From a virus, in the IMG/VR virus record IMGVR_UViG_3300036768_000196, positions 1 through 54,069 of that record: a stretch of DNA of 54,069 nucleotides; one strand, 5' to 3'. Positions within the stretch are counted from its first letter, which is position 1; every line of letters starts with the position of its first letter. Positions 5,945 through 54,069 of the stretch are shown here, piece by piece. The translations under genes and the position numbers were made by a program. Below the pieces are notes generated by a model that was not told where the DNA came from, searched no databases, and saw nothing but the letters and a program-made list of their open reading frames with translations.

Positions 5945-8495
5945 GAGCAGATTCAAGACGCCTCTAGCTGAGGATGTATTTAGAAGGAAATATGCACAAG
6001 GGCCTAACGACACCTGGGATGCTCTTGCTGAAAGGGTTGTAGAAGATGTCTGTGGGACAAGGTGGGGAACAGAACACAAACTGATGTCGGATTCAGACAG
6101 AGAGGCCCTTGTGCAGGCTATTAAGGAATTCAAATTCATTCCCGGCGGAAGGTATCTTTACTATGCAGGAAGGCCGCTGAAATATTTTAACAACTGCTTT
6201 GGCGCTGAAACCAAAGTCTTAACAGACAGAGGTTGGCGTCGTATCAGTGAATTAGGGGTCGCCAATGTAGTAAGTCCAGTTGATGGGAAACTTTACCCTG
6301 CGGAGTTTAAATCACACGGTAAGCAGCAATTGTATAAAATCACATTTGCTACTGTACGTGGACATCAACGCCATACGTGGACTGTTAGAGCTACAAAAAA
6401 CCATCATTGGGTACTTATTGACGGGACAGATACTTATGACCTTCGTGTCGGTGATGTAGTCCCGGCTAATAAATATGCTGCTCAATTTAGCTCAAAACCA
6501 AATCGTGTTGCTTTTGCTCATGGTTTTGTTTACGGCGATGGTAACTCAAACGGTCAATTACGATTGTGTGCAGATAAAGACAAAAAATATCTTGATGAAT
6601 TGGCACTTGTGGGAACAGTTACCTACCCGCCATCAGCAAATGGAGATCCCGTACTTTATTTTAATCAAGATATTGATTGGAAATCTCTACCAAAAAACAC
6701 AGATGATCCAGAATACATTGCAGCCTTCATTGCTGGTTGGCTAGCAGCAGATGGATCAGAAACAGCCGGAAACAAACTTTGCTCTGTAAATAGAGAAGCA
6801 ATAGAATGGTTCCGAGAGTATGCTGCATTTGCTGGTATTGTTATTACAGGAGAAATTCGTTCACAAATTAGAAACGTTAAAATTAAAGACTATGAGTATA
6901 AAGATCATGAAATTTTTATCCAGAATTATCAATATGGAGATGAGTTTTCTGGATATAAAGTGATTAGTATTGAGCCTGATGCAGTTGAGGAGGTATATTG
7001 TCCATACGAGCCAGTACATAATCGCATTATTATCACACACGGCATTGACACATACCAATGCTATCTACTTCGTGTTGAAGATGACACGAGAGAGGAATGG
7101 AGCAATGTAGTATGGCGGGCAATGTCATGTTTAATGACAGGTGGTGGGATTGGAATTGACTATAGTATCGTCAGGCCATCAGGAAAACCTTTGCAGAGAA
7201 CTGGAGGAATTGCATCTGGTCCTATTCCATTGATGTATTGTATCAATGAGATTGGCAGGAACGTGATGCAAGGAGGTTCAAGAAGGTCAGCTATCTATGC
7301 TTCTCTTAACTGGAAGCATGAAGATATTGATGTATTCCTTGAAGCGAAGAACTGGCACAAACAGGAACTTGGCTTGGTGTATTCAGGAAAAGAGGGCACC
7401 AACAGCTATTACACAGTGGCAGATGCAAAGTTCGCTGATTTCAATTATCCTGCTCCATTGGATATGACCAACATTTCAGTGAACTATGACGATGCTGCTC
7501 TTGTTGGTGGTCTGGAGAACAACAAGGTATTCCTAAAGAATTGCTATCAGGCATTGTCAACAGGGGAGCCAGGATTTAGCTTCAATTTTGGAGACAAGCA
7601 AAAAGAAACCCTTCGGAACGCGTGCGTTGAGGTAACATCAGAAGACGACAGTGATGTCTGTAATCTTGGATCTATCAACATAGGCTCCATAGAAACACTG
7701 GAAGAGTTCAAGGATATCGTTATACTAGCAACCAAGTTCCTTGTCTGCGGAACGCTTCGAGCACACCTTCCTTATGAAAAGGTTTACAAAGTTCGAGAGA
7801 AGAATCGTAGGCTTGGGTTGGGCCTTATGGGCATTCATGAATGGTTACTCAAAAGGAATCAAAGATATGAAGTAACCAATGAACTGCACAAATGGCTTGC
7901 CGTATACCGAGACTATTCCCGTAAGGCAGCAGATGAGCATGCAGATCGCCTATTCGTAAGCAGGCCCGTTGCTTGCAGAGCAATTGCTCCTACAGGGACG
8001 ATTGGCATCCTTGCTTCAACTACCACGGGAATTGAGCCGCTGTATGCAGTAGCCTACAAACGTAGGTATTTGTCTGAAGGTACTCGGTGGAAGTATCAGT
8101 TCGTTGTCGATGCAACTGCCGCTTATTTGATAAAACACTACGGGATTGATCCAGACAAGATAGAAACAGCCTCAGATTTGGCAGAAGATTATGAGCGAAG
8201 AATCAAATTCCAGGCAGACGTTCAAGATTATGTTGACATGTCAATATCCAGCACCATCAACCTTCCTCCTTGGAACACAAGAGAAGGCACCGAAGATTAC
8301 GTCAAAAGATTTGCTGGTACGCTTGCCAAGTATGCTACACGTCTACGAGGGTTTACTTGTTACCCGGATGGAAGTAGAGGAGGTCAACCAATCACCAAAG
8401 TAGAATACAGTGAGGCTATAAAGCATCAAGGAGTTATTTTCGAAGAGAACGATATCTGTGATATAACAGGTAAAGGAGGTGTTTGCGGGGTATAA
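5934..8495 (+). CDS. nrdJ: Ribonucleotide reductase, class II (B12-dependent), with in-frame intein
   Basis: The 853-aa precursor consists of extein residues 1-87 and 376-853 (565 aa after splicing) around a 288-aa intein. Extein motifs: FIPGGRYLYYAGR, GGGIGIDYS, active-site NACVE (Asn-Cys-Glu triad), VCNLGSINI (second redox Cys), APTGTIGILASTTTGIEP, and a C-terminal cysteine pair CDITGKGGVCG. It reduces ribonucleotides to deoxyribonucleotides. No NrdB-like radical subunit is in the window, which supports a cobalamin-dependent class II enzyme. The extein is short for the class, as in other phage forms. A bidirectional terminator follows directly. Confidence 0.88.
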   Translation: MTNKSRFKTPLAEDVFRRKYAQGPNDTWDALAERVVEDVCGTRWGTEHKLMSDSDREALVQAIKEFKFIPGGRYLYYAGRPLKYFNNCFGAETKVLTDRGWRRISELGVANVVSPVDGKLYPAEFKSHGKQQLYKITFATVRGHQRHTWTVRATKNHHWVLIDGTDTYDLRVGDVVPANKYAAQFSSKPNRVAFAHGFVYGDGNSNGQLRLCADKDKKYLDELALVGTVTYPPSANGDPVLYFNQDIDWKSLPKNTDDPEYIAAFIAGWLAADGSETAGNKLCSVNREAIEWFREYAAFAGIVITGEIRSQIRNVKIKDYEYKDHEIFIQNYQYGDEFSGYKVISIEPDAVEEVYCPYEPVHNRIIITHGIDTYQCYLLRVEDDTREEWSNVVWRAMSCLMTGGGIGIDYSIVRPSGKPLQRTGGIASGPIPLMYCINEIGRNVMQGGSRRSAIYASLNWKHEDIDVFLEAKNWHKQELGLVYSGKEGTNSYYTVADAKFADFNYPAPLDMTNISVNYDDAALVGGLENNKVFLKNCYQALSTGEPGFSFNFGDKQKETLRNACVEVTSEDDSDVCNLGSINIGSIETLEEFKDIVILATKFLVCGTLRAHLPYEKVYKVREKNRRLGLGLMGIHEWLLKRNQRYEVTNELHKWLAVYRDYSRKAADEHADRLFVSRPVACRAIAPTGTIGILASTTTGIEPLYAVAYKRRYLSEGTRWKYQFVVDATAAYLIKHYGIDPDKIETASDLAEDYERRIKFQADVQDYVDMSISSTINLPPWNTREGTEDYVKRFAGTLAKYATRLRGFTCYPDGSRGGQPITKVEYSEAIKHQGVIFEENDICDITGKGGVCGV
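6195..7058 (+). mobile_element. LAGLIDADG-endonuclease intein inside nrdJ
   Basis: The intein starts at Cys88 (CFGAETKVLTDRG, block A) and ends ...VHNRIIITHGIDTYQ before a +1 Cys; 288 codons, in frame. Blocks F and G are recognisable, but the last residue is Gln instead of the usual Asn. Two LAGLIDADG-like helices are visible, FAHGFVYGDG and FIAGWLAADG, so it carries a homing endonuclease. It sits immediately before the first redox cysteine, a highly conserved site that is hard to lose. It is more AT-rich than the exteins. Cys1, the block F HN and Cys+1 are retained, so splicing is expected. Confidence 0.9.
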
Positions 8496-8498
8496 AAA

Positions 8499-8526
8499 AA
8501 AGGGGGCTTTCGCCCCCTTTTTTTTT
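8499..8526. terminator. Bidirectional rho-independent terminator
   Basis: GGGGGC / GCCCCC stem with a TTTC loop, flanked by A and T runs so it works on both strands. It separates the end of the rightward reductase operon from the end of the leftward late operon, where the two converge. Confidence 0.9.
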
Positions 8527-26621: not shown

Positions 26622-26650
26622 AAAACAGGGGGAAGTTATCCCCCTGTTTT
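26622..26650 (-). terminator. Rho-independent (probably leaky) terminator after capsid gene
   Basis: An 11-bp stem AAAACAGGGGG / CCCCCTGTTTT with a seven-base loop, lying right after the capsid stop when read leftward. The arm ends in TTTT and is followed at once by the GAGGAG ribosome-binding site of the next gene. Likely reduces downstream transcription so that capsid protein is made in excess. Confidence 0.75.
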
Positions 26651-32054: not shown

Positions 32055-33525
32055 CGTTATATTCTTCTTCCTCTATTTCTTCCTGTGTCGGTGCTTCAGT
32101 AATGTAGTCAAGAAGCATGCCAAGCCACGCCAATGCGTCCACCTGGTCATCATGTCTTCCCCTTGGAAAAATGACAAGTTCTTCTTCCAATAAGTTATAC
32201 CAGTCAGATTTCTTGTCGAATTTGACTGTCTTGGCTCGCATCCGTGCCTGAATCACACGAGCACGCTGAACTTTGTCTTTCCCTTTGTGTTTAAGCTGGA
32301 CTATTGGTGGATAGATGCCTTGACGCTGCATCTCTTCACGAAGAAATGGACCAATTGCCTTGGAGATCATCATTTCTTCTATGCCAACTGCCGCAAAATC
32401 GTAGATTTTATGCAGATTAAGCAGCGTATCTACGATCTCTCTGCCATCCATCCGCTCGCGTATGATGTTTTTGATGTGCAGAATTTTGTTTTCATCAACG
32501 CCAGCAATACAAAATACGGTCCAGTCAGCTCTTGTTTCAGTAGAAATTGCCAAGTCCACCGTGCAATAATAGACTACCGGCTTCTTGTAATCCTCTTCCG
32601 TCATCGGAAGAAGGTCTCCACGCTTGAAATATGCAACAGATTCATCAATTGGATTGTTCAGATACTCCTGAGAATACAGATCAAGAGCACCATCACTGGC
32701 ATATTTCTCTTTCTCTGCTACCCAGTATTCCTTTGGAAAACGCTCCTCCCAAAGGAAATGCTTCATTTCTTCATCATGGGCACGGTATTTCACCGAATAC
32801 CAGCCTCTCACGCGCTTATCTGGCCACTCTATCCAGGTCTTTAGTGGAGAATGTTTGACGAATTTATCACTGTCACGTGGCAATAGGCGGTTCAATTGGC
32901 TATCATGATGAAGAACCGTTCCCCACATTCTAAGTTTCCCTGTTGGAGAGCGGCAGGGCATCAGAGCACCCATGAACCATCTACGGAGTTTTTCACGGCG
33001 ATCCTGGTTCATTACCAGTTCGTCGTTCTCAAGATCGTCCACAATTATCAAATCAGGGCGGGTGCCGTTCCAGTTCAGACCACGGAGTTTCTGTTCAGCA
33101 CCCTTTGCAATGACACGGAACATGTATCCATCGCTCATTTCCACGATCATGTCTGTTTCCGTGTCTTTTACTAGTTTTACTTCTCCTTTCTCGTTCTTCT
33201 TGATTCCGAACAACTCGATCAGATCTTCGTTTTCGGTTATCTCTGCCTTCATAGCACCGAGGAACATCGCTGCCTGTGCCTCAGTGTCGGAAACGATTAG
33301 ACAAAATTTGGAAGACCTGAAAAGGAGTTCAGCAAGGCCATACGACAAAGTTCCAGCAGTACTTTTTGCATGGCCTCGTGGAGCACCAATAGCTACGTTC
33401 TTGTGCTCCGAGCAAGCCATTTCCCAGATTTCACGATGAAATTCAGGGATTGCGGTTGCATTATCGAATCGTTTTGATAGTACAGAGCCTACGAAACCTG
33501 CGACTATGTCAGCAGTAAGTTTCAC
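31996..33525 (-). CDS. terL: Terminase large subunit
   Basis: A 509-aa protein. Walker A is GAPRGHAKST (residues 47-56) and Walker B is LIIVDDLEND. The C-terminal nuclease starts at CTVDLAISTETRADWTVFCI and contains further acidic residues in VGIEEMM and DDQVDALAWL. It powers DNA packaging and cuts concatemers. The start codon is GTG, overlapping the stop of a 45-aa ORF (GTGA). Confidence 0.92.
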   Translation of the reverse strand: MKLTADIVAGFVGSVLSKRFDNATAIPEFHREIWEMACSEHKNVAIGAPRGHAKSTAGTLSYGLAELLFRSSKFCLIVSDTEAQAAMFLGAMKAEITENEDLIELFGIKKNEKGEVKLVKDTETDMIVEMSDGYMFRVIAKGAEQKLRGLNWNGTRPDLIIVDDLENDELVMNQDRREKLRRWFMGALMPCRSPTGKLRMWGTVLHHDSQLNRLLPRDSDKFVKHSPLKTWIEWPDKRVRGWYSVKYRAHDEEMKHFLWEERFPKEYWVAEKEKYASDGALDLYSQEYLNNPIDESVAYFKRGDLLPMTEEDYKKPVVYYCTVDLAISTETRADWTVFCIAGVDENKILHIKNIIRERMDGREIVDTLLNLHKIYDFAAVGIEEMMISKAIGPFLREEMQRQGIYPPIVQLKHKGKDKVQRARVIQARMRAKTVKFDKKSDWYNLLEEELVIFPRGRHDDQVDALAWLGMLLDYITEAPTQEEIEEEEYNDELQRSGLTISGRSAITGY

Positions 33526-33659
33526 CGGGACTTACGCTCTCTTTGTGGCTTCCAACCAGTTTTACGCAAAGTGCCATACACGTATGCGTCGGCTCTTTCT
33601 CCTTTGAGTCCCTTTTTCTTTGCTTCTTTCTTGAGTTTTTCTTCCATTGCTTTTGGCAT
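33522..33659 (-). CDS. Small basic protein upstream of terL (45 aa)
   Basis: MPKAMEEKLKKEAKKKGLKGE followed by RADAYVYGTLRKTGWKPQ. The 'KGLKG-R-DAYVYGTLRKTGW' pattern is a small protein I recognise as frequent in phage packaging regions, with no assigned function. It is coupled to terL by a GTGA overlap. It may act in packaging, but direct evidence is lacking. Confidence 0.75.
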   Translation of the reverse strand: MPKAMEEKLKKEAKKKGLKGERADAYVYGTLRKTGWKPQRERKSR

Positions 33660-33660
33660 A

Positions 33661-34452
33661 TTATTTCACCAAACTTTTGTAAATATCGGAAACCAATTCA
33701 GGTCTCCATTTCATAGGTTCAGGATCTCTTGCATCCCATCTGGTTGATCTCCAACCTGTGAGTGATTTGTATGCTTCTGCTGTACGAGGATTGAACAATG
33801 TTTCCTGTAAAACAGGATCTTTCGTAAGATCAACCCCATTTTTCATTTCCAGTCCTACAAGGGTAGCCATGATTTCATTGAATTGCGTATATGGATCGTT
33901 TTCCAGTTCCTTGCTTTTTATCGTATTCTCATGTCCATATCCAATAGTATTCAGTTCAGGGTATTTCTGCCTTAGATATGGGAGTACCTTAAGATACCTG
34001 GCTACGAATTCTCCAGTAGGAATTCCAGCACGCTTGGCAAATTCCCGGTCTCTCTGTACACCAGCGCGCTGCCCACGAACGTTCCAAAGGTGATCAGCTT
34101 CATGCAGATCCCTCAATCCCGGATCCATTGAATCATCTCCAAGATTGATGAACATGGTTTCTGCACCCTTTTCCAGTGGATTTACGAAGGCAGCAGCCCT
34201 ATCCTCATATGGATTACCAGTGGGTGGCTTGTAGTAATAGGTTTTGGTAAATCCCTGCACGAAAGGATTCCCGGTTGCAGGAACTGAACCATACATCGGA
34301 ATACGGCCAGCAGGATCTACAAACTCCCTGGCATAGACGTTGTAGATTTTCTGTGCCTTATATTTGGGATCGTTGAGGAAACGTAATTCTTCCTCACGGG
34401 GCATTGCCATTTGGGCATCATAACGCCTTGCCAGTATTTCAAGGGGGCTCAT
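33661..34452 (-). CDS. Hypothetical protein with HEADH motif (263 aa)
   Basis: Rich in Arg, Tyr and Pro. Contains LRDLHEADHLWNVRGQRAG, where HEADH fits the HExxH zinc-peptidase motif, and a Tyr-rich repeat-like section (TKTYYYKPPTGNPYEDRAAAF). A capsid-maturation or ejection-related protease is possible but unproven; the motif is short and may be chance. Between HNH and terL genes. Confidence 0.5.
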   Translation of the reverse strand: MSPLEILARRYDAQMAMPREEELRFLNDPKYKAQKIYNVYAREFVDPAGRIPMYGSVPATGNPFVQGFTKTYYYKPPTGNPYEDRAAAFVNPLEKGAETMFINLGDDSMDPGLRDLHEADHLWNVRGQRAGVQRDREFAKRAGIPTGEFVARYLKVLPYLRQKYPELNTIGYGHENTIKSKELENDPYTQFNEIMATLVGLEMKNGVDLTKDPVLQETLFNPRTAEAYKSLTGWRSTRWDARDPEPMKWRPELVSDIYKSLVK

Positions 34453-34724
34453 CGGCTAGCTCTCTGTTTCCTTAATGCTTCTTTACGAAGGTTTGTTTTA
34501 TCAGACACTGCCCGTAGATTGGACATAGAATTACCGCCACCATAGATGATAGGCAGGATATGATCAACCTGTTTGTTGTCTCCTTTGCGTACTTTCCCGG
34601 CTTTTTCCATTTCCCTGCGAGCAAGGACACGCTGCACCCGGTCCTTGAGCCGGTGTTTGGCTTTCTTCAATTCCCATTCATGTTCACGCTTATAATCACG
34701 CTTACCGTTTTTCTGGAATGGCAT
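34449..34724 (-). CDS. HNH endonuclease (packaging-associated)
   Basis: A 91-aa basic protein. The C-terminal NKQVDHILPIIYGGGNSMSNLRAVSDKTNLRK is an HNH motif (D-H, N, N). Small HNH proteins next to terminase genes assist cos or concatemer cleavage in several phages. The long Lys/Arg-rich N-terminus suggests DNA binding. It shares a four-base overlap with the next gene. Confidence 0.8.
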   Translation of the reverse strand: MPFQKNGKRDYKREHEWELKKAKHRLKDRVQRVLARREMEKAGKVRKGDNKQVDHILPIIYGGGNSMSNLRAVSDKTNLRKEALRKQRASR

Positions 34725-34733
34725 TTTTAAGAA

Positions 34734-35309
34734 TTACTCCTGTTTAGTATGTTCTAACATCTTTGGGGTTACGTCAGTTACTTCTAACACCCTGGTCTTG
34801 TTAGCCATTTTGGCGAAGGCATCAGCAAGAGCAGTCAAGCGGTCCTGAATCTGCTGCTTTGCAGCTTCGTCTTGTGGTTTGTCATCAAGCTTGGCTTGCC
34901 TATCTAGTAATCCAGCAGCAACGTTCATGGCGTCTCTCATGACTACTGGTTTACGTTTCATTTCCCCTGTTTTCTGGTCATAGATCCAGTCACCATTCTC
35001 CAGCCTGTCCATGGTGACGTCCAGTGCCTTCTCGGCAATCTTCTTAAGCCTGTTGGACAGCTTGATAGTGTTTTCGGTACGGAGTTCGATTACAAGATCG
35101 TTCCACCACTTGGAGTATCTCCATGTCTTGACGGTATCGAATGGGATACCAAGGGAAGCAGCTACGGTAGGAAGGTTACCTACTACCATCCAGAGCTTCA
35201 CAGCTTCGAGCTTCTCTGCATCGGAGTACCAGTGTTTGACACCTTTTTCTGCCTTCCTTTTCTTTTTTGGACTAGGAAGTTTTTTAAGATTTTCTGAATC
35301 ACTTAACAT
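34734..35309 (-). CDS. Terminase small subunit-like protein
   Basis: The N-terminal basic stretch (LPSPKKKRKAEKG) precedes a helix-turn-helix (LEAVKLWMVVGNLPTVAASLGIPFDTVKTWRYSKWW). A helical oligomerisation part follows (SNRLKKIAEKALDVTMDRLENGDW...RDAMNVAAGLLDRQAKL). This matches phage small terminases that select DNA for packaging. I chose the ATG at 35309; an upstream in-frame ATG (35384) would translate into the leader hairpins. First gene of the late operon. Confidence 0.78.
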   Translation of the reverse strand: MLSDSENLKKLPSPKKKRKAEKGVKHWYSDAEKLEAVKLWMVVGNLPTVAASLGIPFDTVKTWRYSKWWNDLVIELRTENTIKLSNRLKKIAEKALDVTMDRLENGDWIYDQKTGEMKRKPVVMRDAMNVAAGLLDRQAKLDDKPQDEAAKQQIQDRLTALADAFAKMANKTRVLEVTDVTPKMLEHTKQE

Positions 35310-35334
35310 TTTTTTTCTAAAAATCCTCTTATCA

Positions 35335-35553
35335 AGCCAAAGAAGTTGCGGAGGATTACAGCAACTTCTTTGGCTCTTTACCAAGTCATCAGGAAGGTAC
35401 TGAAGTACCTTCCTAATGACTTGTATTGCGAAGCCTGCTCCCGAAAGGTCCCAAAAACCTTTCGGGGTAAGCAGGCTTCGCTCAATGCGAAGCCAATGGA
35501 CTTAATAGTTATTAAGTCCTTTGGCTTCGCTATAAGGCGAAGCCTTATTTTTT
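35335..35553 (-). promoter_or_regulatory. Five-hairpin late-operon leader array (left arm)
   Basis: Five consecutive inverted repeats: H1 35335-35349/35361-35375 (15 bp perfect, 11-base loop); H2 35383-35401/35404-35422 (one mismatch); H3 35428-35481 (12+9 bp with a bulge); H4 35487-35530 (20 of 21 positions paired); H5 35532-35538/35542-35548 (ATAAGGC-GAA-GCCTTAT). H3, H4 and H5 share the core GCGAAGCC. The array lies between the perfect leftward promoter and terS, so it would be the 5' leader of the 27-kb late mRNA. Read rightward, H5 followed by T7 would be a terminator. Confidence 0.85.
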
Positions 35554-35564
35554 TATAAAACGTT

Positions 35565-35593
35565 ATTATAGCATATTTTTCGAATTTTGTCAA
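35565..35593 (-). promoter_or_regulatory. Perfect sigma70 promoter for the late operon
   Basis: On the minus strand: TTGACA (35593-35588), 17-bp spacer, TATAAT (35570-35565). Initiation is expected near 35557, just before hairpin H5. It overlaps a 14-bp inverted repeat (35576-35589/35596-35609, TTTTTCGAATTTTG), which could be an operator. It is the only strong leftward promoter I found ahead of terS. Confidence 0.85.
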
Positions 35594-35700
35594 GTCAAAA
35601 TTCGAAAAAGGTATCCCATAAATATGGTATAATACCATATTTATGGTATAATATATCTTTTTTTATAGTTATACTATACCATTTTTATGGTATACATGCT
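35576..35700. promoter_or_regulatory. AT-rich palindrome cluster with extended -10 elements
   Basis: Contains the 14-bp inverted repeat at 35576-35609, a 29-bp near-perfect palindrome at 35618-35646 (arms CATAAATATGGTAT) and another at about 35673-35692 (TATACCAT/ATGGTATA). TGGTATAAT, an extended -10 box, occurs twice rightward (35625-35633, 35644-35652). It lies in the middle of the two hairpin arms. Candidate divergent promoter-operator and/or replication origin. Confidence 0.65.
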
Positions 35701-35714
35701 TTTTTTGAAAATAT

Positions 35715-35967
35715 GCGGCAGCGTGAAATGATGCCTTACGCTCCACTCATAGCTGCCGCTTTTCCCCCCACCGGGGGGTCTAATCATCGCTGCCGCATTG
35801 ATCGTGCCCGCTCTCGGCGTTGCCGATTGCATCGCGGGCACTACTGAAAGCATGCGAGCAGTGCTCGCGTAGATGCATGCGCTTGATCATATAAAAGCGC
35901 ATGCTTGATACATCTTTACTGTGTAAAGATGTATTCTGCATCCATCTTTTAGGTTAAAGATGGATGC
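35715..35967 (+). ncRNA. Seven-hairpin array (right arm), noncoding
   Basis: Stems: 35715-35722/35752-35759 (GCGGCAGC); 35764-35769/35773-35778 (C6/G6); 35804-35811/35834-35841 (GTGCCCGC) with an inner TCGGC/GCCGA; 35854-35859/35863-35868 (GCGAGC); 35875-35884/35895-35904 (GCATGCGCTT); 35908-35919/35923-35934 (ATACATCTTTAC, 12 bp); 35938-35949/35956-35967 (GCATCCATCTTT, 12 bp). No ORF is credible here. If read from the extended -10 elements at 35625-35652 it would form a noncoding RNA or untranslated leader. Confidence 0.75.
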
Positions 35968-36075
35968 TTGATCTATCTTATTGATTTAAAAGGGATTTCT
36001 AGTACATCTTTTCCATACATAGACTTAGCAGCGCCGACACCGTGCGATATCGGCAAACTTTTCACCTTGTGAAAT

Positions 36076-36092
36076 TTCTAAAACTTTTAGAA
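36076..36092. promoter_or_regulatory. 17-bp palindrome, candidate operator (site 1)
   Basis: TTCTAAAACTTTTAGAA, a near-perfect dyad that differs by only the central base from the one at 37330-37346. It lies about 40 bp upstream of the -35 box of the promoter at 36133. A half-site (CTTTTAGAA) also occurs at 37351-37359 and 47512-47520. Confidence 0.5.
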
Positions 36093-36132
36093 CGTGCTGC
36101 GCGCAGTACCTTAAACGCGGTATAGCGCGAGC

Positions 36133-36161
36133 TTGCGTTATTGCCTAAGCCGTGCTACAAT
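36133..36161 (+). promoter_or_regulatory. Sigma70-like promoter upstream of the 36.2-kb genes
   Basis: TTGCGT (36133-36138), 17-bp spacer, TACAAT (36156-36161). Two mismatches in the -35 box and one in the -10. It is followed by a perfect 8-bp dyad and then the first gene of the 36.2-37.1 kb unit. Confidence 0.65.
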
Positions 36162-36170
36162 GCTTCTTAG

Positions 36171-36191
36171 ATTGTGAGGTTGGCTCACAAT
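36171..36191 (+). promoter_or_regulatory. Dyad ATTGTGAG-N5-CTCACAAT between promoter and gene
   Basis: A perfect 8-bp inverted repeat with a five-base centre (GTTGG), starting about ten bases after the -10 box. In DNA it could be an operator covering the transcription start; in RNA it would be a 5'-terminal stabilising hairpin. The half-sites look like lac operator halves, but the spacing is wrong for LacI. Confidence 0.6.
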
Positions 36192-36211
36192 CATCACTTG
36201 GGAGATTGACT

Positions 36212-36406
36212 ATGAAGTCTGGACGTGAGGAAATCATCCGCATTCTTATGAAACGCGACAAGCTTTCATATATGGAAGCTTTCGCGCAGTACAACGAAGG
36301 AATGAAGGCAGTGCATCGGGCATTGCTCGATGGTGATGACGTCGAAGCGGTTTTCTGCGAGGAATTCGGTCTGGAACCGGATTACCTTTTCGACGTTCTG
36401 GCATAA
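36212..36406 (+). CDS. Small acidic protein (64 aa)
   Basis: MKSGREEIIRILMKRDKLSYMEAFAQYNEGM then an acidic C-terminus (DGDDVEAVFCEEFGLEPDYLFDVLA). A TTGGGAGA ribosome-binding site precedes it; the next gene has nearly the same leader (ACTTGGGAGA), suggesting a shared expression design. Higher GC than flanking late genes. No family recognised. Confidence 0.65.
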   Translation: MKSGREEIIRILMKRDKLSYMEAFAQYNEGMKAVHRALLDGDDVEAVFCEEFGLEPDYLFDVLA

Positions 36407-36426
36407 CTTACTTGGGAGAATGCACC

Positions 36427-37068
36427 ATGCAAGTCGAAATCGAAGGCAAAGGCGCGGTGAACGTTCCTGACAAGCTGGCCGCCGAAGTGCAATCGGCGGT
36501 TAAGACTACCGAAGGATCTACCGCCAAATGGCGGGATTTGTGGCCGAAGGTTGAAGACACCTTTGGCGATAACGCTTTCACGCGCGGCACGCCTGAATAT
36601 AAGGCAGTGCACCGCTTCGTGGCATCCATGCATCCCGCTTGGCGGGAAGCTCCCGAAAGGGGGGATAACTCGGATGCTGCTAACTCGGCGCGTGCGGGAC
36701 GCGCACAAGCCCTGACCGTGGCATCCGTGGCCATGTCGCTTATGGCCAAGTATCGTGCCCAACATTATAATGAGGGCGCTGAACGTGGCCCCCGGCGCAA
36801 GATTGCTTACGCTGAAAAGCGTACCCTGATCATCAAGACTATCGCCCGCTTCGCAGAAAAGGGCGATGCCCAAGCTACCGCCGACTTGGCCGCATTGCGG
36901 GCTGCTAAGGCCGACAAGCAAGCCGAAAGGATCGATGTAGCACTCGCGCAGCCCCGCACGATCGGCGCAGAGTCGCGGCAGCCGGGTCCCGTCACGGTCA
37001 CCAAGCCCGCACCCGCCAAAGCCAAGGTTCGCAAGGCCAAGGCCGAAGCCCAAACCGCCACGGCATAA
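36427..37068 (+). CDS. Hypothetical protein with histone-like basic C-terminus (213 aa)
   Basis: The N-terminal ~150 residues include FTRGTPEYKAVHRFVASMHPAW and a helical region; the last ~30 are Lys/Ala/Pro-rich (KPAPAKAKVRKAKAEAQTAT), like H1- or HU-type DNA-binding tails. GC and codon use are clearly higher than in the neighbouring genes, suggesting acquisition from a GC-rich source. Two tandem terminators follow. It may coat or remodel DNA, but this is inferred from the tail only. Confidence 0.6.
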   Translation: MQVEIEGKGAVNVPDKLAAEVQSAVKTTEGSTAKWRDLWPKVEDTFGDNAFTRGTPEYKAVHRFVASMHPAWREAPERGDNSDAANSARAGRAQALTVASVAMSLMAKYRAQHYNEGAERGPRRKIAYAEKRTLIIKTIARFAEKGDAQATADLAALRAAKADKQAERIDVALAQPRTIGAESRQPGPVTVTKPAPAKAKVRKAKAEAQTATA

Positions 37069-37080
37069 CGTGGAACTCAG

Positions 37081-37110
37081 AAAGCCCGCTTAACCGCGGG
37101 CTTTTTTTTT
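37081..37110 (+). terminator. Rho-independent terminator
   Basis: AAAGCCCGC and GCGGGCTTT arms around a short loop, followed by a long T-run. It ends the 36.2-37.1 kb transcription unit. Confidence 0.92.
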
Positions 37111-37127
37111 GTCCTTTGATCCTACAG

Positions 37128-37156
37128 CCGCGCCAGCATAGGTGCGGTTTTTTTTT
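37128..37156 (+). terminator. Second tandem terminator
   Basis: CCGCGCC / GGTGCGG (one G-T pair), loop AGCATA, followed by nine T. It backs up the previous terminator and insulates the next promoter. Confidence 0.8.
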
Positions 37157-41560: not shown

Positions 41561-42124
41561 ATGTCTGCACTGTTTTTATGGGGAGGTGAAGACATTTCCC
41601 CATCCCTATACGGACAAAAACCTGTGCATACCAATGCACCGGCTAAACCTTCTCAACGTGACTTAAAAGAGATCAAGCTAATCAATGAAGCTGTAAAAAG
41701 TCAACGTCCTATTATCGGCATCTGTCGTGGCGCTCAACTTCTTTGTGTAATTCACGGCGGAAAACTTTGGCAGCATGTAGAAAAGCATGCCGGCACTGTT
41801 CCGCATGAACTAGAATTAAAGCTAAAAGATGGAGTAGAAAAAGTTTATTCTAACTCCACACATCATCAGATGATGATCCCTGACGAGGATGCAGAAATCA
41901 TCGCTACTACTACAGAACCTTTGTATCCTTACCGATGGAGTGAAGACAAAAATCCTGTAAAGGTAGTGGATAAAGATGTCGAAATTCTGTATCTACCTAG
42001 ACTAAACGCGCTTGCAATTCAGGCACATCCAGAATGGATGCCAAAGAATTGCAAATTCAACCAAATGCTTCGTCAACTTGTAGAGGAGAAATTCAATGGT
42101 GAAGTATCCCTCCCTTGGCTGTGA
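41561..42124 (+). CDS. Class I glutamine amidotransferase-like hydrolase (amidoligase cassette)
   Basis: FLWGGEDISPSLYG at the start, GICRGAQLL with the nucleophile Cys, and QAHPEW with the catalytic His are class I GATase features, closest to gamma-glutamyl-GABA hydrolase (PuuD)-type enzymes. Family members hydrolyse gamma-glutamyl bonds. In amidoligase clusters described for phages such as phiEco32 a peptidase of this type accompanies the ligases. ATG 41561 has AAAGGA upstream. It overlaps the next gene by 29 bases. Confidence 0.8.
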   Translation: MSALFLWGGEDISPSLYGQKPVHTNAPAKPSQRDLKEIKLINEAVKSQRPIIGICRGAQLLCVIHGGKLWQHVEKHAGTVPHELELKLKDGVEKVYSNSTHHQMMIPDEDAEIIATTTEPLYPYRWSEDKNPVKVVDKDVEILYLPRLNALAIQAHPEWMPKNCKFNQMLRQLVEEKFNGEVSLPWL

Positions 42125-42884
42125 TCCGGAATGGTTCCTTCAAACCGAAGATGGAAAAGTAGTCTCAGCAATTGGAAAGATCGGAGGCACCAAGCAAGAA
42201 CCTCGTGTTTTGTTTACTGAGAAAATCCGAGGAAAAGAATTCCCTTTTTGCGTTCAGGAAGACAACGTCCTGCTTGAATACAACATCCCACCAGCTACAT
42301 GCAAAAGTGAGTGGCTCGATTTCAATCTGCTAATCCAAAGCAAGATTAAAGAGGAACTTCAAAAACAGGGGCTTAAGCCACTCATCGTTCCTTCTTATAT
42401 CATGCCAAAAGAGGAGATGAATAATCCGTTCGCTTGGGTATTTGGGTGCGATCCTGATTACAACGCATGGACACGTAAACCAAATCCTAATCCAGCATCA
42501 CAAAACAAGTTCCTTAGGTCTGCTGGAGGACATATCCACATTGGATTCAAGGGAAACAAAGAGGACAAGATACGGTTCGTGAAACTACTGGACCTTTTCC
42601 TAGATGCACCTTTGATGCTAATGGATAAGGATCGGCGCAGGCAGGAGCTTTACGGTAGACCGGGTGCGTTCCGATTCAAGCCGTATGGTCTAGAATACAG
42701 GACGCCAAGTAATTTCTGGACGCAGAGTTTGCAGACAATGGAGATGGTATACAACTGCGTCATGACGGCTTGGGAAAACTTCTACAAGTTAGAAGTTCCT
42801 GATGAAGTTCAGCAGATTCTCCTGCGAGGAAATGACGAAGAAATCTCTGAGATGGTAAATAAATATGTATACTCATCCCTATAA
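42096..42884 (+). CDS. COOH-NH2 ligase, phiEco32 type (amidoligase)
   Basis: A 262-aa protein: LGCDPEWFLQ near the N-terminus, EDNVLLEYNIPPA, and SAGGHIHIGF with two His are hallmark motifs of the phage COOH-NH2 ligase type 2 family (glutamine-synthetase-like fold). GLEYRTPSNFW follows. It should couple a carboxyl and an amine using ATP. The substrate is unknown, possibly a peptide or a cell-surface compound. First ligase of the cassette. Confidence 0.82.
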   Translation: MVKYPSLGCDPEWFLQTEDGKVVSAIGKIGGTKQEPRVLFTEKIRGKEFPFCVQEDNVLLEYNIPPATCKSEWLDFNLLIQSKIKEELQKQGLKPLIVPSYIMPKEEMNNPFAWVFGCDPDYNAWTRKPNPNPASQNKFLRSAGGHIHIGFKGNKEDKIRFVKLLDLFLDAPLMLMDKDRRRQELYGRPGAFRFKPYGLEYRTPSNFWTQSLQTMEMVYNCVMTAWENFYKLEVPDEVQQILLRGNDEEISEMVNKYVYSSL

Positions 42885-43416
42885 ACCTCAGTTTAATCTC
42901 CCAGTGAATGGAGATTCAATTAATGATCTCGTAAGAAAATGGGGAGACTCTTTTTCTTGTGTTTATACCGATAAAGAATTTCTATTCGGATTCATCTCAT
43001 CTTTAGATGATTTAATAGTAAATTTGTGGAAAAAGGATGGCGGAAAGTTTTTATCAACAAAGGCAAAACCAACTTATTTCTATTTTCCATCGTGTTTATT
43101 TCCACACAGTAACTACATATATTTCCTACAAAGGAAAAACGAAAATGTATTCAAAGTAGGAATCAGTTCATTAAACTATAATCTCTTTTATTACGATAAA
43201 AGAGAAAAGAAATTTCTATATGATTCGGTAGAAGGTAATCCCGCATTATTCAGTTATGCTTCATTCATCACTAGCGGAATGGAGCATGAAAACATATGTG
43301 GTAATTTCTGTTATATTGACGGAAAACTTTTCTATAAAAATGATGAAGTTTCCCCTAGACTATTTCATTTAGTTCCTAAATTCATTCTCAACAAGTGGGG
43401 ACTAAAATGCCCATAG
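42865..43416 (+). CDS. Hypothetical protein inside amidoligase cassette (183 aa)
   Basis: A Tyr/Phe/Lys-rich beta protein (YIYFLQRKNENVFKVGISSLN; NLFYYDKREKKFLYDSV). Overlaps the ligase genes on both sides, so it is co-translated with them. It could be the substrate, a carrier or an accessory of the cassette. No family recognised. Confidence 0.6.
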   Translation: MYTHPYKPQFNLPVNGDSINDLVRKWGDSFSCVYTDKEFLFGFISSLDDLIVNLWKKDGGKFLSTKAKPTYFYFPSCLFPHSNYIYFLQRKNENVFKVGISSLNYNLFYYDKREKKFLYDSVEGNPALFSYASFITSGMEHENICGNFCYIDGKLFYKNDEVSPRLFHLVPKFILNKWGLKCP

Positions 43417-44219
43417 TTTATGAAATTTATAGCCACGCTGAGGATGTAGAAACAAAATTGTATCCTCAGATCGAATATGGAAGGAAAAAATTTCCCGGAT
43501 TGAAAACCTATATGGGGTGGGTGTCTAACCCAATAGGTATTGAAATTGAAATAGAGGGATACAAATTCATTGACCCAATGCTGAAAAATGAACCACTCTT
43601 CTACTGGAAGACGATAAAGGATGGTTCTTTAAGGGATGGAATAGAGTTCTGCTCGATTCCCCTTGTCAGCAGCGGAATTGATTATGCATTGGCAGAAATC
43701 GAGCCATTCCTTGCCCAATGCAGAGTTTCTCACAGAACCGGGATTCACGTTCACAATAATGTTTCAAGGCTAACAAAAGAAAAACTTTATCTTCTGTTTG
43801 CATATTATATTCTTTTTGAAGAAGAATTCTTTGGATTCGTAGATCCTTTAAGAAAAGCAAATCCTTATTGTGTTCCTGTAATTGGACTTGATGTAGGAAT
43901 CTCCCCGAAGAAATACTTTGCTTTTGACATGATGGAATCACTAAATAACTACAGGACAGTAGAATTCCGTCATTTGGAAACAACCCATGATGTAAGGAAA
44001 ATACGGAGGTTTTTACAACTTGTAACAAAGCTGCATAGGTTCATTCATATCAATGAAGTTAAAAAGCTTATAAACATTTTGAACTCGATTGAAGATCAAT
44101 CAGAATATGAAAAGCTTTTAGACAAAGTCTTCGGTAAAACAGCCAGCTTCTTGAAAAAAACTCTCTGCCCAGACAATCTGTTTTATGCTAGGTTCATAGC
44201 ATATAAACTCTCCCGCTGA
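43407..44219 (+). CDS. Second amidoligase-like protein
   Basis: GIEIEIEGYKF near residue 50, KDGSLRDGIEFCSIPLVSSG, TGIHVHNNVSRL and YRTVEFRHLETTHD follow the amidoligase (COOH-NH2 ligase) motif order: Glu pair, DGSL...E, HVHxN and R..E.R. The start is ATG 43407 (GGGGACTAAA upstream). It probably adds an amide bond in sequence with the ligase at 42096. The two ligases are clearly different proteins, not a duplication. Confidence 0.72.
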   Translation: MPIVYEIYSHAEDVETKLYPQIEYGRKKFPGLKTYMGWVSNPIGIEIEIEGYKFIDPMLKNEPLFYWKTIKDGSLRDGIEFCSIPLVSSGIDYALAEIEPFLAQCRVSHRTGIHVHNNVSRLTKEKLYLLFAYYILFEEEFFGFVDPLRKANPYCVPVIGLDVGISPKKYFAFDMMESLNNYRTVEFRHLETTHDVRKIRRFLQLVTKLHRFIHINEVKKLINILNSIEDQSEYEKLLDKVFGKTASFLKKTLCPDNLFYARFIAYKLSR

Positions 44220-44226
44220 GACAAAA

Positions 44227-45456
44227 ATGTGCGGAATTTACGGAATCATTTCAAAGAACGGAACGGAGATCAACAAAGATGCCCTATATCAAATGGGGCT
44301 TCTTTCTGCATTACGGGGCACTGACAGCACCGGGCTATGCCTAATCAAAAAGAATGGTGATGCTCGAATCATCAAAACTATTGGCCCTGTAATGAACCTG
44401 TATTATGAAAAGGGCTGGAAAAAATTCGAAGAAGAATTTAAAGATGCAGTAGCAGTGTTTGGTCACTGCCGTTATGCCACCGTCGGAGATGTAGATAAAA
44501 AGAATGCACAGCCTCTTGTAAATGGCAACCTGATTCTATTGCATAACGGAACACTTACAGCAGTCAAAACAGAAAAAGGAGAATCAGACTCTACTGTTTT
44601 CTGTAAGAAAATAAAGGAAATGGGAGTGAAGGATGCCGTAAAATCTACCGCAGGTTCTATGGCAATCGTTACGTATGACTTGAATGACAAGAAAGTTACT
44701 TTCTACAGGAATTATCAAAGGCCATTATCGTATGCAAACACACAAAACTTTATTTATGTAATGTCAGAAAGGTCTGCTTTAGAGTATCTGTTTACCAGAA
44801 ATAATATCAGATTCGATGATAAATCTGACTTCGATGGTTATACTTTATATCATTTGGATATTAATAATCCTGCTGCTGGAATAGAAAAAGGTGATGATCT
44901 TTATGTCTCTGTAACAAGAAGGGAAAGCCATACAAATTTTTTTCCAGTTTTTGGAAAAGGTTTTTGGAATGACCTTTCCCCTCATTACAAGGAAGGTGGA
45001 GAAATAAACTTCATCGTTGAAAGCTTGTTTGAAAGTTCACAGAAAGGACAATATGTCTATATGTGCAGCGATGAAGATAACAGGCGTATTTTCTTTAAGA
45101 CAGACAAGAAGATTGATTCATTACTAGGTAAGATTGGAACAGGAGAATGTTGCAGCGTAGTAAAACATAACAACAGCTTCATGTATCAAGTAAAATACCG
45201 GACCATCAAATGGGATGATGAAAAACCAGACGACGATGAAGATGAAGTAGTCACTCTGGATGAATTAATTCCAAGAAAACAGTGGCTTGAGCTAGTCAAG
45301 AAAGAAGAATGCTCTGGCTGCAATAGGTCAATTCTCCTTGATGAGCATTACAACACGATGGTTTGGGAAGATGTAAAAGGGAAATGGCATCTCCTTTGCG
45401 GAGATTGTTATAATCGTAGCACTCCAGTTGCAAGTAACGAAAGGGTATTCACATGA
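44227..45456 (+). CDS. Class II glutamine amidotransferase (N-terminal nucleophile)
   Basis: MCGIYGIISKNG starts with the Cys2 nucleophile of Ntn-type GATases. RGTDSTGL and HNGTL (residues ~105) bind glutamine. A C-terminal extension includes CSGCNRSILLDEHYN and CGDCYNRS, a possible zinc ribbon. It would supply ammonia from glutamine to a ligase or a synthetase. Located between the second amidoligase and ATP-grasp genes; four-base overlap with the latter. Confidence 0.82.
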   Translation: MCGIYGIISKNGTEINKDALYQMGLLSALRGTDSTGLCLIKKNGDARIIKTIGPVMNLYYEKGWKKFEEEFKDAVAVFGHCRYATVGDVDKKNAQPLVNGNLILLHNGTLTAVKTEKGESDSTVFCKKIKEMGVKDAVKSTAGSMAIVTYDLNDKKVTFYRNYQRPLSYANTQNFIYVMSERSALEYLFTRNNIRFDDKSDFDGYTLYHLDINNPAAGIEKGDDLYVSVTRRESHTNFFPVFGKGFWNDLSPHYKEGGEINFIVESLFESSQKGQYVYMCSDEDNRRIFFKTDKKIDSLLGKIGTGECCSVVKHNNSFMYQVKYRTIKWDDEKPDDDEDEVVTLDELIPRKQWLELVKKEECSGCNRSILLDEHYNTMVWEDVKGKWHLLCGDCYNRSTPVASNERVFT

Positions 45457-46184
45457 TTATCGTACCATATAGTTGGCATTCCAAGTCTGTATGGAAACTG
45501 GCAGAAGAGCTGAATTTCTGGCTAGTATCCAGAAAAGAAATGGTTACCGAAAAAGGAATCAATTGGGGATGTAGCAAATTATGGATTGAAAACCCAGGTC
45601 TGGTGCTAAATAAGGATTATGCAGTTGAACGCGCAGTGTTTAAGAAAAAGTTATATTCCATTCTAGAACAGAATGGTATTCCTGCCGTAGAAAGCACAGA
45701 CGACAAAGAAGTAGCAAAAAGATGGCTTGACGAAGACAACATCGTATTTGCAAGAAAAGACGGATTGTCAAAAGGCAAAGGAATCAAAATCTTACATCAA
45801 GGAGATGAAGTACCCGAAGCAGACTTCTATACAAAATATATCCAAAAGAGAAAAGAGTTTAGGATCCATTGCACTAAATTCGACGTGTTCGATATAACCC
45901 AGAAGAAGCGAAAGCGGGATGAAAAACAAAATGAATTCATTAGAAACAGAAAGAATGGATGGATCTTTGCCAGACAAGATCTAAAGATCCCTAACAATAT
46001 TGAGGATCTGGCACTTAAAACAATTAAAGCACTAGAGCTTGATTTTGGTGCAGTAGATATAATCTATGATCTGGATGCAAAAAAGTTAAAGGTGCTGGAA
46101 GTAAATACTGCGCCGGGTCTGGAAGGGACTACCCTTCTTAAATATGTAGAAATGTTCAAAAACCATCCTCACTTTGCGGAGTAA
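45453..46184 (+). CDS. ATP-grasp ligase
   Basis: A 243-aa protein with the ATP-grasp core: FARKDGLSKGKGIKIL (glycine-rich loop region), KYIQKRKEFRIHC, then LEVNTAPGLEGTT with the metal-binding Glu-Asn and Asn of the RimK/D-Ala-D-Ala ligase type. It joins a carboxylate to an amine with ATP. The N-terminal NxxK-like pre-grasp domain is short. Final enzyme of the cassette. Confidence 0.82.
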   Translation: MIIVPYSWHSKSVWKLAEELNFWLVSRKEMVTEKGINWGCSKLWIENPGLVLNKDYAVERAVFKKKLYSILEQNGIPAVESTDDKEVAKRWLDEDNIVFARKDGLSKGKGIKILHQGDEVPEADFYTKYIQKRKEFRIHCTKFDVFDITQKKRKRDEKQNEFIRNRKNGWIFARQDLKIPNNIEDLALKTIKALELDFGAVDIIYDLDAKKLKVLEVNTAPGLEGTTLLKYVEMFKNHPHFAE

Positions 46185-51444: not shown

Positions 51445-52173
51445 ATGTATGTGCAATGTGATGCATCTCAATTGGAATGGCGAGTTCTTAACTGGCTGGC
51501 TAATGATCCAGTAGGTCTTCGTGAGCTTAATGAGGAAATAGATGTTCATTCGGCGAATCAAAAGGCATTTAATCTACCAACGAGACTTATCTCCAAAAAG
51601 TACCTATTTCGTACTATTTACCGCGGCTCTGGCTGGAGTTTCGCTAATGATCCTGATTTTATGGGCGTTTCTGATGATCCTGACTTTTGGGATGAAATAA
51701 ACAGGAAGTTCTATGACAAGTACAAAGGAATTGACAAGTACCATAGAAACCTTGCAGATCTGGTTATAAGAAACAAGCCTATTTGCTCACCACTTGGCCG
51801 TGAATGGCTAGTTGGACTAAAAGAGAACGGAATGATTCCGTGGACAGTCTTGACTAATTATCCAGTGCAGGGTACTGGAAATGATCTTCTGGCAATAACA
51901 AGAATAAGCCTAAGAAAGAACATGAATGAAAAAAAGATGCGGTCCCTTCTGGTATCTACTGTCCACGATTCGATCGTTGCTGATTGCCCTGAGGAGGAAG
52001 CAAAAGATGTAGCCAACCTCATGTACGATGTATTTGACATTTACCTTCCGAAGAATGTGAAGGCTATCTGGAATATAGACTTGCCATGCAAGTTTCCATG
52101 CGAGGTTAAAATTGGTCCTAACCTCAAGGACATGGATAAATACCAAAAACAGGGTATTGACAGGCAGGACTGA
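51445..52173 (+). CDS. DNA polymerase family A, C-terminal polymerase part
   Basis: A 242-aa protein. YVQCDASQLEWRVLNWLANDP is motif A, ISKKYLFRTIYRGSGWSF is motif B (with RGSG where YGxG is usual), and LVSTVHDSIVAD is motif C. Together with the exonuclease part it makes the phage replicative polymerase. Its 3' end holds the -35 box of the next promoter. A 5'-truncated identical copy opens the window. Confidence 0.88.
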   Translation: MYVQCDASQLEWRVLNWLANDPVGLRELNEEIDVHSANQKAFNLPTRLISKKYLFRTIYRGSGWSFANDPDFMGVSDDPDFWDEINRKFYDKYKGIDKYHRNLADLVIRNKPICSPLGREWLVGLKENGMIPWTVLTNYPVQGTGNDLLAITRISLRKNMNEKKMRSLLVSTVHDSIVADCPEEEAKDVANLMYDVFDIYLPKNVKAIWNIDLPCKFPCEVKIGPNLKDMDKYQKQGIDRQD

Positions 52174-52185
52174 ATTGGATATAAT
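52157..52185 (+). promoter_or_regulatory. Perfect sigma70 promoter upstream of ssb-like gene (right copy)
   Basis: TTGACA and TATAAT with a 17-bp spacer, identical to the promoter at 645-673. Confidence 0.85.
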
Positions 52186-52204
52186 ATAGACAAAGAGGAT
52201 AGAG

Positions 52205-52732
52205 ATGTTAATCGAGATCAAACAGGTATCTACGAAGAATGTAGTCAAAGGTAGAAACAAATACACCCAAATGGATGTAAGTTACCACAACCTGGACAAA
52301 AACCGGGAAGAGGGTAAAAAATCCTTGATGTCATTTACTACTGAGCAGGCTACATGGAATGCCCTTTCAAATGCAAAACAGGGTGAAGTATACAAGGTAA
52401 AAGCACAGAAAAACGACAAAGGGTTTTGGGACTGGGTAGAAGCAGTCAAGGAGGAAACTAACCAGATGGTTCAAGGAAAGCCTATTCCTGTATCGACACG
52501 TCCAAACTATGAGACGGCTGATGAACGTGCCCGTAGGCAGGTTTATATTATCCGTCAAAGCTCTATTGCATCTGCAATCGAGTATTATAAAGACCAAGGC
52601 AAGCGACCTAAAGTAGAAGAAGTTCTGGCTCTTGCCAAGGTATTCGAGAACTATGTGATGTCGGAAGACGACAATAATGAGGTAACTCCCAAGGATACTT
52701 GGGAAGTTGCTGATGAAGCGGAGATTAAATAA
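52205..52732 (+). CDS. Probable ssDNA-binding protein (right copy)
   Basis: Identical to the 175-aa protein at 693-1220; see that entry for the OB-fold-like N-terminus, helical section and acidic tail. The duplicate exists because the repeat is carried at both ends. Confidence 0.65.
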   Translation: MLIEIKQVSTKNVVKGRNKYTQMDVSYHNLDKNREEGKKSLMSFTTEQATWNALSNAKQGEVYKVKAQKNDKGFWDWVEAVKEETNQMVQGKPIPVSTRPNYETADERARRQVYIIRQSSIASAIEYYKDQGKRPKVEEVLALAKVFENYVMSEDDNNEVTPKDTWEVADEAEIK

Positions 52733-52756
52733 TAAAGTCATCTTAGGCAAACTCAA

Positions 52757-53548
52757 ATGAAGTGTGAATCCTTCAAGAGAAATGCCAAATCCGTAAAAGA
52801 GCTACTTGCCTCTATCAGGAATGGTAAGTTCACGCTAGATGGAAGAAATCTTATTGTTCGTGGCAACCTTTCACTTAAAAATTTGGGATTAACTTCTCTT
52901 CTTGGTTGCCCAAAATATGTTGGTGGTGAATTTAACTGTTCAGGTAATGAGTTAAAAACATTAGAAGGGTCACCACAAAAAGTTGGTAGTTTTGATTGCA
53001 GCTTCAACGACTTAATTTCTCTTGAAGGCGGACCTCGAAAAGTAGAATACAGGTACGATTGCAGTGACAACAGGCTAAAAACACTTGAAGGTGCGCCACC
53101 AAAAGTTGGTAGTTTTGACTGTTCTCGCAACAACCTTCAAACATTGAAAGGCGGACCACAGGAAGTAGGTACCTACTTTATTTGCGACTACAATAAGCTC
53201 GAAACGCTGGATGGAGGACCTGTTAAGGTAGGAGCTACTTATAGCTGTAGCAATAATAAGTTAATCTCTCTTAAGGGTGCACCACGGGTAGTTGGCTACA
53301 ATTTTTATTGTAGACAAAACAAGCTATCTTCGTTAGAAGGTTGTCCTCGTACCATTGGCGGTAGTTTATACTGTGAAAAAAATAAACTTCTTACTTCACT
53401 TGAAGGAGGCCCACGTTATATTGTTGAGGATGTTTATTTGTATGGTTGTCCTAACTTAATCTCTATTGAGAATTTTCATCTTTACTTGCCTAAAGTACTC
53501 GGCAAATTTTATTTCAAAAAAAGGAGGTTTGTATGTACTATAAAGTAG
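52757..53548 (+). CDS. Leucine-rich-repeat-like protein (right copy)
   Basis: Identical to the 263-aa protein at 1245-2036, with the same ~20-residue SLEGxPxxVG repeats. Confidence 0.75.
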   Translation: MKCESFKRNAKSVKELLASIRNGKFTLDGRNLIVRGNLSLKNLGLTSLLGCPKYVGGEFNCSGNELKTLEGSPQKVGSFDCSFNDLISLEGGPRKVEYRYDCSDNRLKTLEGAPPKVGSFDCSRNNLQTLKGGPQEVGTYFICDYNKLETLDGGPVKVGATYSCSNNKLISLKGAPRVVGYNFYCRQNKLSSLEGCPRTIGGSLYCEKNKLLTSLEGGPRYIVEDVYLYGCPNLISIENFHLYLPKVLGKFYFKKRRFVCTIK

Positions 53549-53712
53549 TTCGTAATGGAGTAACTGTAGCAAAGGGGTTTTCTAACTACGAGAAGGCACG
53601 TCAATTCTTGCGTAAACTTCTACGTAAGAAAGATCCGATTCGTGTGAACCGTCAGCCAGACCCGCTTTCTGCTTTCCTTTTCGGCTACGAAATCGTTCGA
53701 GTTGACAAATAA
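53533..53712 (+). CDS. Small basic hypothetical protein (right copy)
   Basis: Identical to the 59-aa ORF at 2021-2200, with the same AAAGGAGG ribosome-binding site and overlap of the LRR-like gene. Confidence 0.75.
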   Translation: MYYKVVRNGVTVAKGFSNYEKARQFLRKLLRKKDPIRVNRQPDPLSAFLFGYEIVRVDK

Positions 53713-53722
53713 TAGATGACAT

Positions 53723-53749
53723 GGCCTCCCCGCAAGGGGAGGCTTTTCC
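53723..53749 (+). terminator. Rho-independent terminator (right copy)
   Basis: Same GCCTCCCC-GCAA-GGGGAGGC hairpin and TTTT as at 2211-2237. Confidence 0.8.
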
Positions 53750-53765
53750 TGACAAGGAATTACAG

Positions 53766-54069
53766 ATGTTGTGCCTTATTGATGGCGACATTGTAGCTTA
53801 CAGATGCGCAGCTTCCTGCGAACCAACGAAAGAAAAACATGAGCGAGATCCCCTTGACATCGCAATTGCAAGAGCAGATTCCCTCTTATACCGCATCGTT
53901 AGTGACACTCAATCTACTGAATATCGGCTCTTTATATCAGGCACTGGAAATTTTAGAAAAAAGCTCTATCCGCAGTACAAAGCTAATCGTGAACATTTAC
54001 CACGACCAGTATGGCTTGACGAACTTCGTAAATTTCTGGTTGAAGAATGGAAAAGTGAAGTCACTTCCG
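53766..54069 (+). CDS. 5'-3' exonuclease, 3'-truncated right copy
   Basis: The first ~101 codons of the exonuclease that is complete at 2254-3021, cut by the end of the window after WKSEVTS. It contains the DGDIVAY metal site but not the later acidic cluster or the helix-hairpin-helix. Confidence 0.88.
   Translation, partial: MLCLIDGDIVAYRCAASCEPTKEKHERDPLDIAIARADSLLYRIVSDTQSTEYRLFISGTGNFRKKLYPQYKANREHLPRPVWLDELRKFLVEEWKSEVTS

Follow-up and report, generated by a model that had tools for sequence, protein, structure and literature searches.

The sequence analysed here, referred to below as the window, is the whole of the virus record IMGVR_UViG_3300036768_000196 in IMG/VR, with 54,069 bases in total and 51,512 unique bases; positions 1-2557 are identical to positions 51513-54069, so that its ends either carry a direct terminal repeat or overlap through assembly. 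Its genes form a late block on the minus strand, running from 35.3 kb down to 8.5 kb (terminase, portal, head and endolysin), and a plus-strand block with replication and other genes, running from 36.2 kb round to 8.5 kb. The gene that we call terS received no PHROGs name, and Pfam gave only a sub-threshold helix-turn-helix match. The proteins scanned include a primase-like protein, a DnaB-like helicase and parts of an A-family polymerase, and no replication initiator was recognised among them. Two strong hairpins with T-runs on both strands lie elsewhere in the genome. The first, at 26622-26650, is within the late operon and follows the gene for the major head protein, and the second, at 8494-8525, marks the meeting point of the two gene blocks. 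A GC-rich (~60%) cassette at 36100-37150 looks like a moron, carrying two small genes with no Pfam or PHROGs family match at E 0.001, a weak promoter candidate at 36133 with a hairpin behind it, and a pair of terminators within 37079-37149. A further cluster, at 42096-46184, consists of amidoligase-like, glutamine-amidotransferase and RimK-like genes.

At the point where the late and replication blocks diverge sit two arrays of hairpins, a left arm on the terS side and a right arm on the side away from it (Table 1). The promoters and palindromes that the original prediction had placed between them are real, with a 12/12 promoter match on the minus strand and extended -10 boxes only on the plus strand (TGnTATAAT, ending at 35633 and 35652, without a -35 box, read by eye). 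Scans covering the whole genome between them gave no second 12/12 match for the minus strand besides the one at 35593; the next best are two 11/12 matches at 9039 and 3168. Between the arms there is also an AT-rich stretch (20% GC over 100 nt from 35615), with the composition of the AT-rich unwinding region of a DnaA-type origin.

Table 1. Features at the divergence point of the late and replication gene blocks
Feature	Position	Strand	Basis
Putative small terminase gene, terS	34734-35309	-	named by position and synteny
Predicted late-operon leader, five back-to-back hairpins, no U-runs on the minus strand	35310-35558	-	z -17.6
Left hairpin 5, 15 bp	35335-35375	-	
Left hairpin 4, 20-nt arms, 19/20 paired plus one G-U	35382-35423	-	
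Left hairpin 3, 12-bp outer and 10-bp inner stem	35428-35481	-	
Left hairpin 2, 21-nt arms, 20/21 complementary	35487-35530	-	
Left hairpin 1, 7 bp	35532-35548	-	
Late promoter, TTGACA-17-TATAAT, TG before -10, 12/12 match	35565-35593	-	promoter scan
14-bp palindrome around the late -35, operator-like	35576-35609		
Operator-like palindromes, ATACCAT..ATGGTAT, with two plus-strand extended -10 boxes	35612-35694		
Family-conserved element ending in TTTTCCCCCCACC, putative origin core	35700-35772	+	profile E 4.7e-7
Right hairpin 1, GCGGCAGC/GCTGCCGC, formed inside the conserved element	35715-35759	+	
Right hairpin 2, CCCCCC/GGGGGG	35764-35778	+	
Right hairpin 3, GTGCCCGC/GCGGGCAC	35804-35841	+	
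Right hairpin 4, GCGAGC/GCTCGC	35854-35868	+	
Right hairpin 5, 10 bp	35875-35904	+	
Right hairpin 6, 12 bp	35908-35934	+	
Right hairpin 7, 12 bp	35938-35967	+	

The five strong inverted repeats predicted on the terS side were borne out: read on the minus strand, the leader (254 nt) folds at -141 kcal/mol (z = -17.6), and none of 200 shuffles folded equally well. The claim that the left arms share a core holds for hairpins 1-3, which have GCGAAGCC/GGCTTCGC in common, and fails for hairpins 4 and 5, from which it is missing. In the terminator scan, none of the left hairpins was called terminator-like on the minus strand; read on the plus strand, hairpins 1 and 2 have T-runs behind them and are terminator-like. 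The first local stem begins ~10 nt from the predicted late transcript start, and the proposal that this arm is the leader of the late operon fits the position of the 12/12 promoter directly upstream of it. In the one partial divergent copy available, L002, 2 of 118 leader sites differ from the window, against 56 of 560 in terS (P = 0.0017); one of the two leader changes keeps a pair and the other breaks a pair.

On the side away from terS, the seven hairpins that had been predicted are likewise present on the plus strand, between 35715 and 35967, with arms of ~6-12 bp and a fold that stands out both as RNA (z = -8.0) and as DNA (z = -9.8). None of them was called terminator-like on the plus strand in the terminator scan, and neither arm combines stems with U-runs on the transcribed strand in the manner of an intrinsic terminator array.

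For their base composition, no other part of the 51.5-kb genome is as structured as the two arms. When 200-nt segments were ranked by structure with correction for GC content (1027 scanned), the top ten on the plus strand and the top eleven on the minus strand all fell within 35251-36100. Under a strict definition of a hairpin (net score of at least 12, loop of 3-12), the unique bases of the genome contain nine, and seven of these lie in the two-arm region. We compared this with 84 loci of relatives obtained from terS and portal searches, some of them from one contig (the portal scan matched 230 relatives, of which 80 were fetched). A named phage related to this family is vB_Af_QDWS535 of Alcaligenes faecalis. 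At least three strict hairpins within 500 nt were found only in a near-identical contig (L001/L014); L002/L013, which is 91% identical, has both hairpins that fall within its coverage, L071 has two short hairpins, and the remaining loci have at most one. A looser scan upstream of terS, with 45 sequences scored by z from 20 simple shuffles each, gave L074 a best 200-nt segment of z = -7.8, with some eleven further relatives at about -5 to -6, the excess folding there consisting mostly of AT-rich palindromes and single hairpins. Because the array clusters are restricted to a near-identical relative, the dense arrays belong to the lineage of the window. The search for the array in related genomes, which had been proposed as a check, succeeded for the near-identical phage, whereas relatives that keep the gene order have no array.

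Other explanations for the arms were considered and set aside. Three ORFs of at least 60 aa lie mostly within them, one of these, on the minus strand, beginning upstream of the late promoter; none has a Pfam or PHROGs match to E 0.1. As to a recent insertion from elsewhere, DNA searches of phages (with 33500-37100) and plasmids (with 35300-36200) gave no match, and Rfam 15 gave, at gathering score, nothing but tRNA in the window and in 15 relative loci.

Relatives do share, on the side of the locus away from terS, a gapless element of ~75 bp that ends in TTTTCCCCCCACC(CCC). On the strand that leads away from terS, it runs from an A run through a TTAC block to a C-tract, TTTTCCCCCCACCCCC or near it. 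The C-tract is found at the expected place in 31 of 44 sequences upstream of terS, the window included; six of the 13 sequences without it have at most 500 nt upstream of terS, and the contig of L056 is closed at its own tract. The exact TTAC block is present in 33 of 41 distinct aligned copies, being absent from L003, L020, L057, L068, L084, L089, L093 and L094. A profile built from 26 relatives, with the window excluded, has the element in Table 1 as its sole significant match in the window. As an exact DNA pattern, the element can be written TTAC-N21-TTTTCCCCCCACCC, and this was found in 17 contigs of IMG/VR (some already known), all 17 times upstream of a family terS and on the opposite strand. 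Among 84,980 prokaryotic genomes the pattern occurs in three contigs, one of which is a phage of the same family, and the other two do not match the full element.

The promoter arrangement recurs as well: a late-direction promoter-like match of at least 10/12 lies upstream of terS in 38 of 47 entries, and promoter-like matches on both strands within 900 nt occur in 27 of 47, counts in which a few entries repeat a contig and which were made without a chance control. Judged by sequence comparison, what is conserved across the family is the setting, that is, the opposed promoter-like matches, the AT-rich stretch and the ~75-bp element, and the eye-catching array is a lineage-specific addition around this conserved site. 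The folding of the sequence after the tract gives a similar picture, with 28 relatives reaching no lower than -3.5 and the arm in the window falling beyond them at z = -7.4; the relatives average -1.4, near the mean of a distant control stretch (-1.2). A C-tract followed by a G run, capable of forming a hairpin, occurs in L003, L068 and L069, as it does at 35764-35778 of the window.

In relatives, the element is accompanied by further signals. A hairpin whose internal loop is a tandem GA/GA precedes it on the same strand in 29 of 39 (of these, L067, L108 and L109 are doubtful places and were excluded from the alignment of 26) and on the other strand in none of 39, against a background of 0.3% of random segments and 0.1% of shuffles. 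The stems of this hairpin vary across relatives yet stay complementary, with compensating changes read by eye. Between hairpin and element lie A/T motifs of the form YWNAA with a phase of ~10.5 bp; spacings of 10-11 and 20-21 nt account for 47, 43, 24 and 31 pairs versus about 2 in shuffles, and 12 of 26 relatives have runs of at least three motifs at a strict 10-11 nt, versus 7 of 688 control segments. After the tract, there are 16 strict DnaA boxes in 13,427 nt (in 8 of the 27 loci with at least 400 nt of sequence) compared with 7 in 522,475 nt elsewhere, and 12 copies on both strands of the palindrome AATGA(G/T)AATCATT or its complement (AATGATTCTCATT/AATGAGAATCATT) compared with 0 elsewhere, all of these counts, like that of the tandem-GA hairpin, being made on the loci where the motifs were first noticed. 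The palindrome, which resembles a Fur box, occurs 23-180 nt after the C-tract in L033, L037, L061, L065, L074 and L086 and is absent from the other 522 kb of these loci.

In the window itself, the 2.5 kb around the tract are free of DnaA boxes, the tandem-GA hairpin was not found in it, and no run of at least three phased motifs lies in 34.5-38 kb, with 10 such runs genome-wide on both strands. Its cumulative GC skew has a minimum at 35,815 and a maximum at 8,506; the minimum is suggestive of a replication start, and since these extremes are also the joints of gene direction, the skew is not independent evidence for an origin. From the family comparison, we think that the conserved element, together with its AT-rich neighbour, is probably a replication origin. 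The original suggestion of an origin is strengthened for the conserved element inside the right arm, and not for the hairpins as such. The full reading, in which the divergent control region contains this origin and the hairpins of both arms have the roles proposed here, we hold more tentatively, at a little below an even chance. The right hairpins occupy the place held in some relatives by DnaA boxes and palindromes, and it is conceivable, though rather doubtful, that they substitute for them.

The position of the element would also suit a cos or pac site, since it adjoins terS and since ten relatives have contigs whose ends fall 34-128 nt past the point where the tract begins. The distance from the homopolymer to each of these ends, however, is no more than about one k-mer of 127 nt, and the contig of L056, a circle closed by an overlap of 127 nt, is broken at its own 12-C tract (k being known for that kind of assembly only), so the contig ends look like assembly breaks. 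The apparent DNA terminus is thus probably an artefact of assembly, and we do not pursue it as a physical end. A packaging site would not be expected to carry DnaA boxes or phased motifs, and, with adjacency to terS as its remaining support, this part of the original prediction appears very unlikely. Assemblies of this family tend to break at the C-tract, and some of the genomes may look linear or incomplete.

For the left arm, the reading we prefer is that the consensus minus-strand promoter would open the late operon and that the first ~250 nt of its RNA would form five stable hairpins, which would protect this long mRNA against decay that begins at the 5' end. In E. coli, RppH and RNase E are impeded by secondary structure at the 5' end of an RNA (PMC3997798). 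Many relatives, and other promoters in this genome, have a single 5' hairpin, which the array could have enlarged in this lineage: a hairpin lies 2-3 nt behind each of the 12/12 promoters at 37253 and 47181 and behind the weak candidate at 36133 (8/12, own count), and none lies at the 5' end of the transcript from the 12/12 promoter at 52157. In the late leaders of relatives, a hairpin starts within 14 nt in 14 of 29, where shuffled sequences give 5.8 and none of 200 shuffles more than 13, and the first 45 nt have a mean z of -1.30 versus -0.50 for the next 45; leader hairpins are also found at 45-90 nt (10 of 29) and 90-135 nt (11 of 29), nearly as often, so that the excess at the 5' end is modest. 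Five hairpins exceed what protection of a 5' end needs, and one of the two changes in L002 breaks a pair; we rate this shielding of the mRNA as an appreciable possibility, only a little below even. A leader processed by RNase III, to which the stems of ~20 bp would lend themselves, seems to us very improbable. A better, if still low, probability goes to both arms being put-like RNAs, whose hairpins would attach to RNA polymerase as they emerge and enable it to pass the terminators of long operons. This would agree with arms directly below a promoter, with hairpins lacking U-runs, with the T-run hairpin at 26622-26650 inside the late operon, and with the lack of a second 12/12 promoter on the minus strand. 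The put RNAs of HK022, however, measure ~70 nt and form two stem-loops each, with putL similar to putR (PMC9378689), whereas the arms here have five and seven hairpins and are unalike, a self-search with 34734-36400 returning only the sequence itself and six self-matching palindromes. Rfam gives only tRNA in the window, and relatives with the same gene order have no array.

We give the same low probability to palindromes that grew neutrally by template switching beside an origin and have no function. The stems are near-perfect and unrelated, are found in one lineage only and flank an AT-rich stretch, and one of them formed inside the conserved element, all of which would fit such growth; against it, the leader diverges less than terS in the one available comparison. 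Long palindromes tend toward instability in bacteria, and the retention of twelve of them despite this suggests a use. If the left arm does protect or antiterminate the 27-kb late transcript, it would be a compact natural leader that can be tested with a reporter. The 39-base pattern, for its part, gives a large environmental phage group a testable candidate for an origin and control element. It is possible, though we consider it doubtful, that the family represents an undescribed class of phage origin, in which divergent promoters and an AT-rich stretch are combined with a tandem-GA hairpin, YWNAA motifs in helical phase and, at fixed spacing, a two-run C-tract as a possible switch from transcription to replication; the lineage of the window would here have replaced DnaA boxes and phased motifs with hairpin arrays on both sides, acting as initiator or single-strand sites.

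In the open-licence literature (most subscription journals fall outside this scope), we found no description of this phage, of tandem hairpin leaders of late operons or of an origin of this kind. The original statement that no bidirectional layout of this sort has been described was nevertheless too strong, because HK022 carries putL and putR below its two early promoters (PMC9378689). Its put RNAs bring about terminator read-through without protein factors, via the beta' zinc-binding domain. The window resembles HK022 in having hairpin RNAs, predicted here, below the promoters of two phage operons, and differs in hairpin number, in the unlikeness of its arms and in the pair of operons concerned. 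With DnaA-type and iteron origins the family shares the AT-rich stretch and, in part of its members, helically phased short motifs and DnaA boxes; unlike them, it has a C-tract at fixed spacing and a tandem-GA hairpin, and the window is without DnaA boxes or phased motifs. The C-tract also resembles the G-tract of mitochondrial CSB II, in which two C/G runs are split by one base beside a T/A run; the likeness lies in the split runs and the neighbouring T/A run and need not mean descent or a G-quadruplex, and a divergent transcript would carry the C-rich strand. Stem-loops at the 5' terminus of the ompA type are stabilisers of mRNA, and the left arm would be similar to them in placing stable hairpins near the predicted 5' end of a putatively strong transcript, but with five tandem hairpins over ~250 nt, at the head of a phage late operon.
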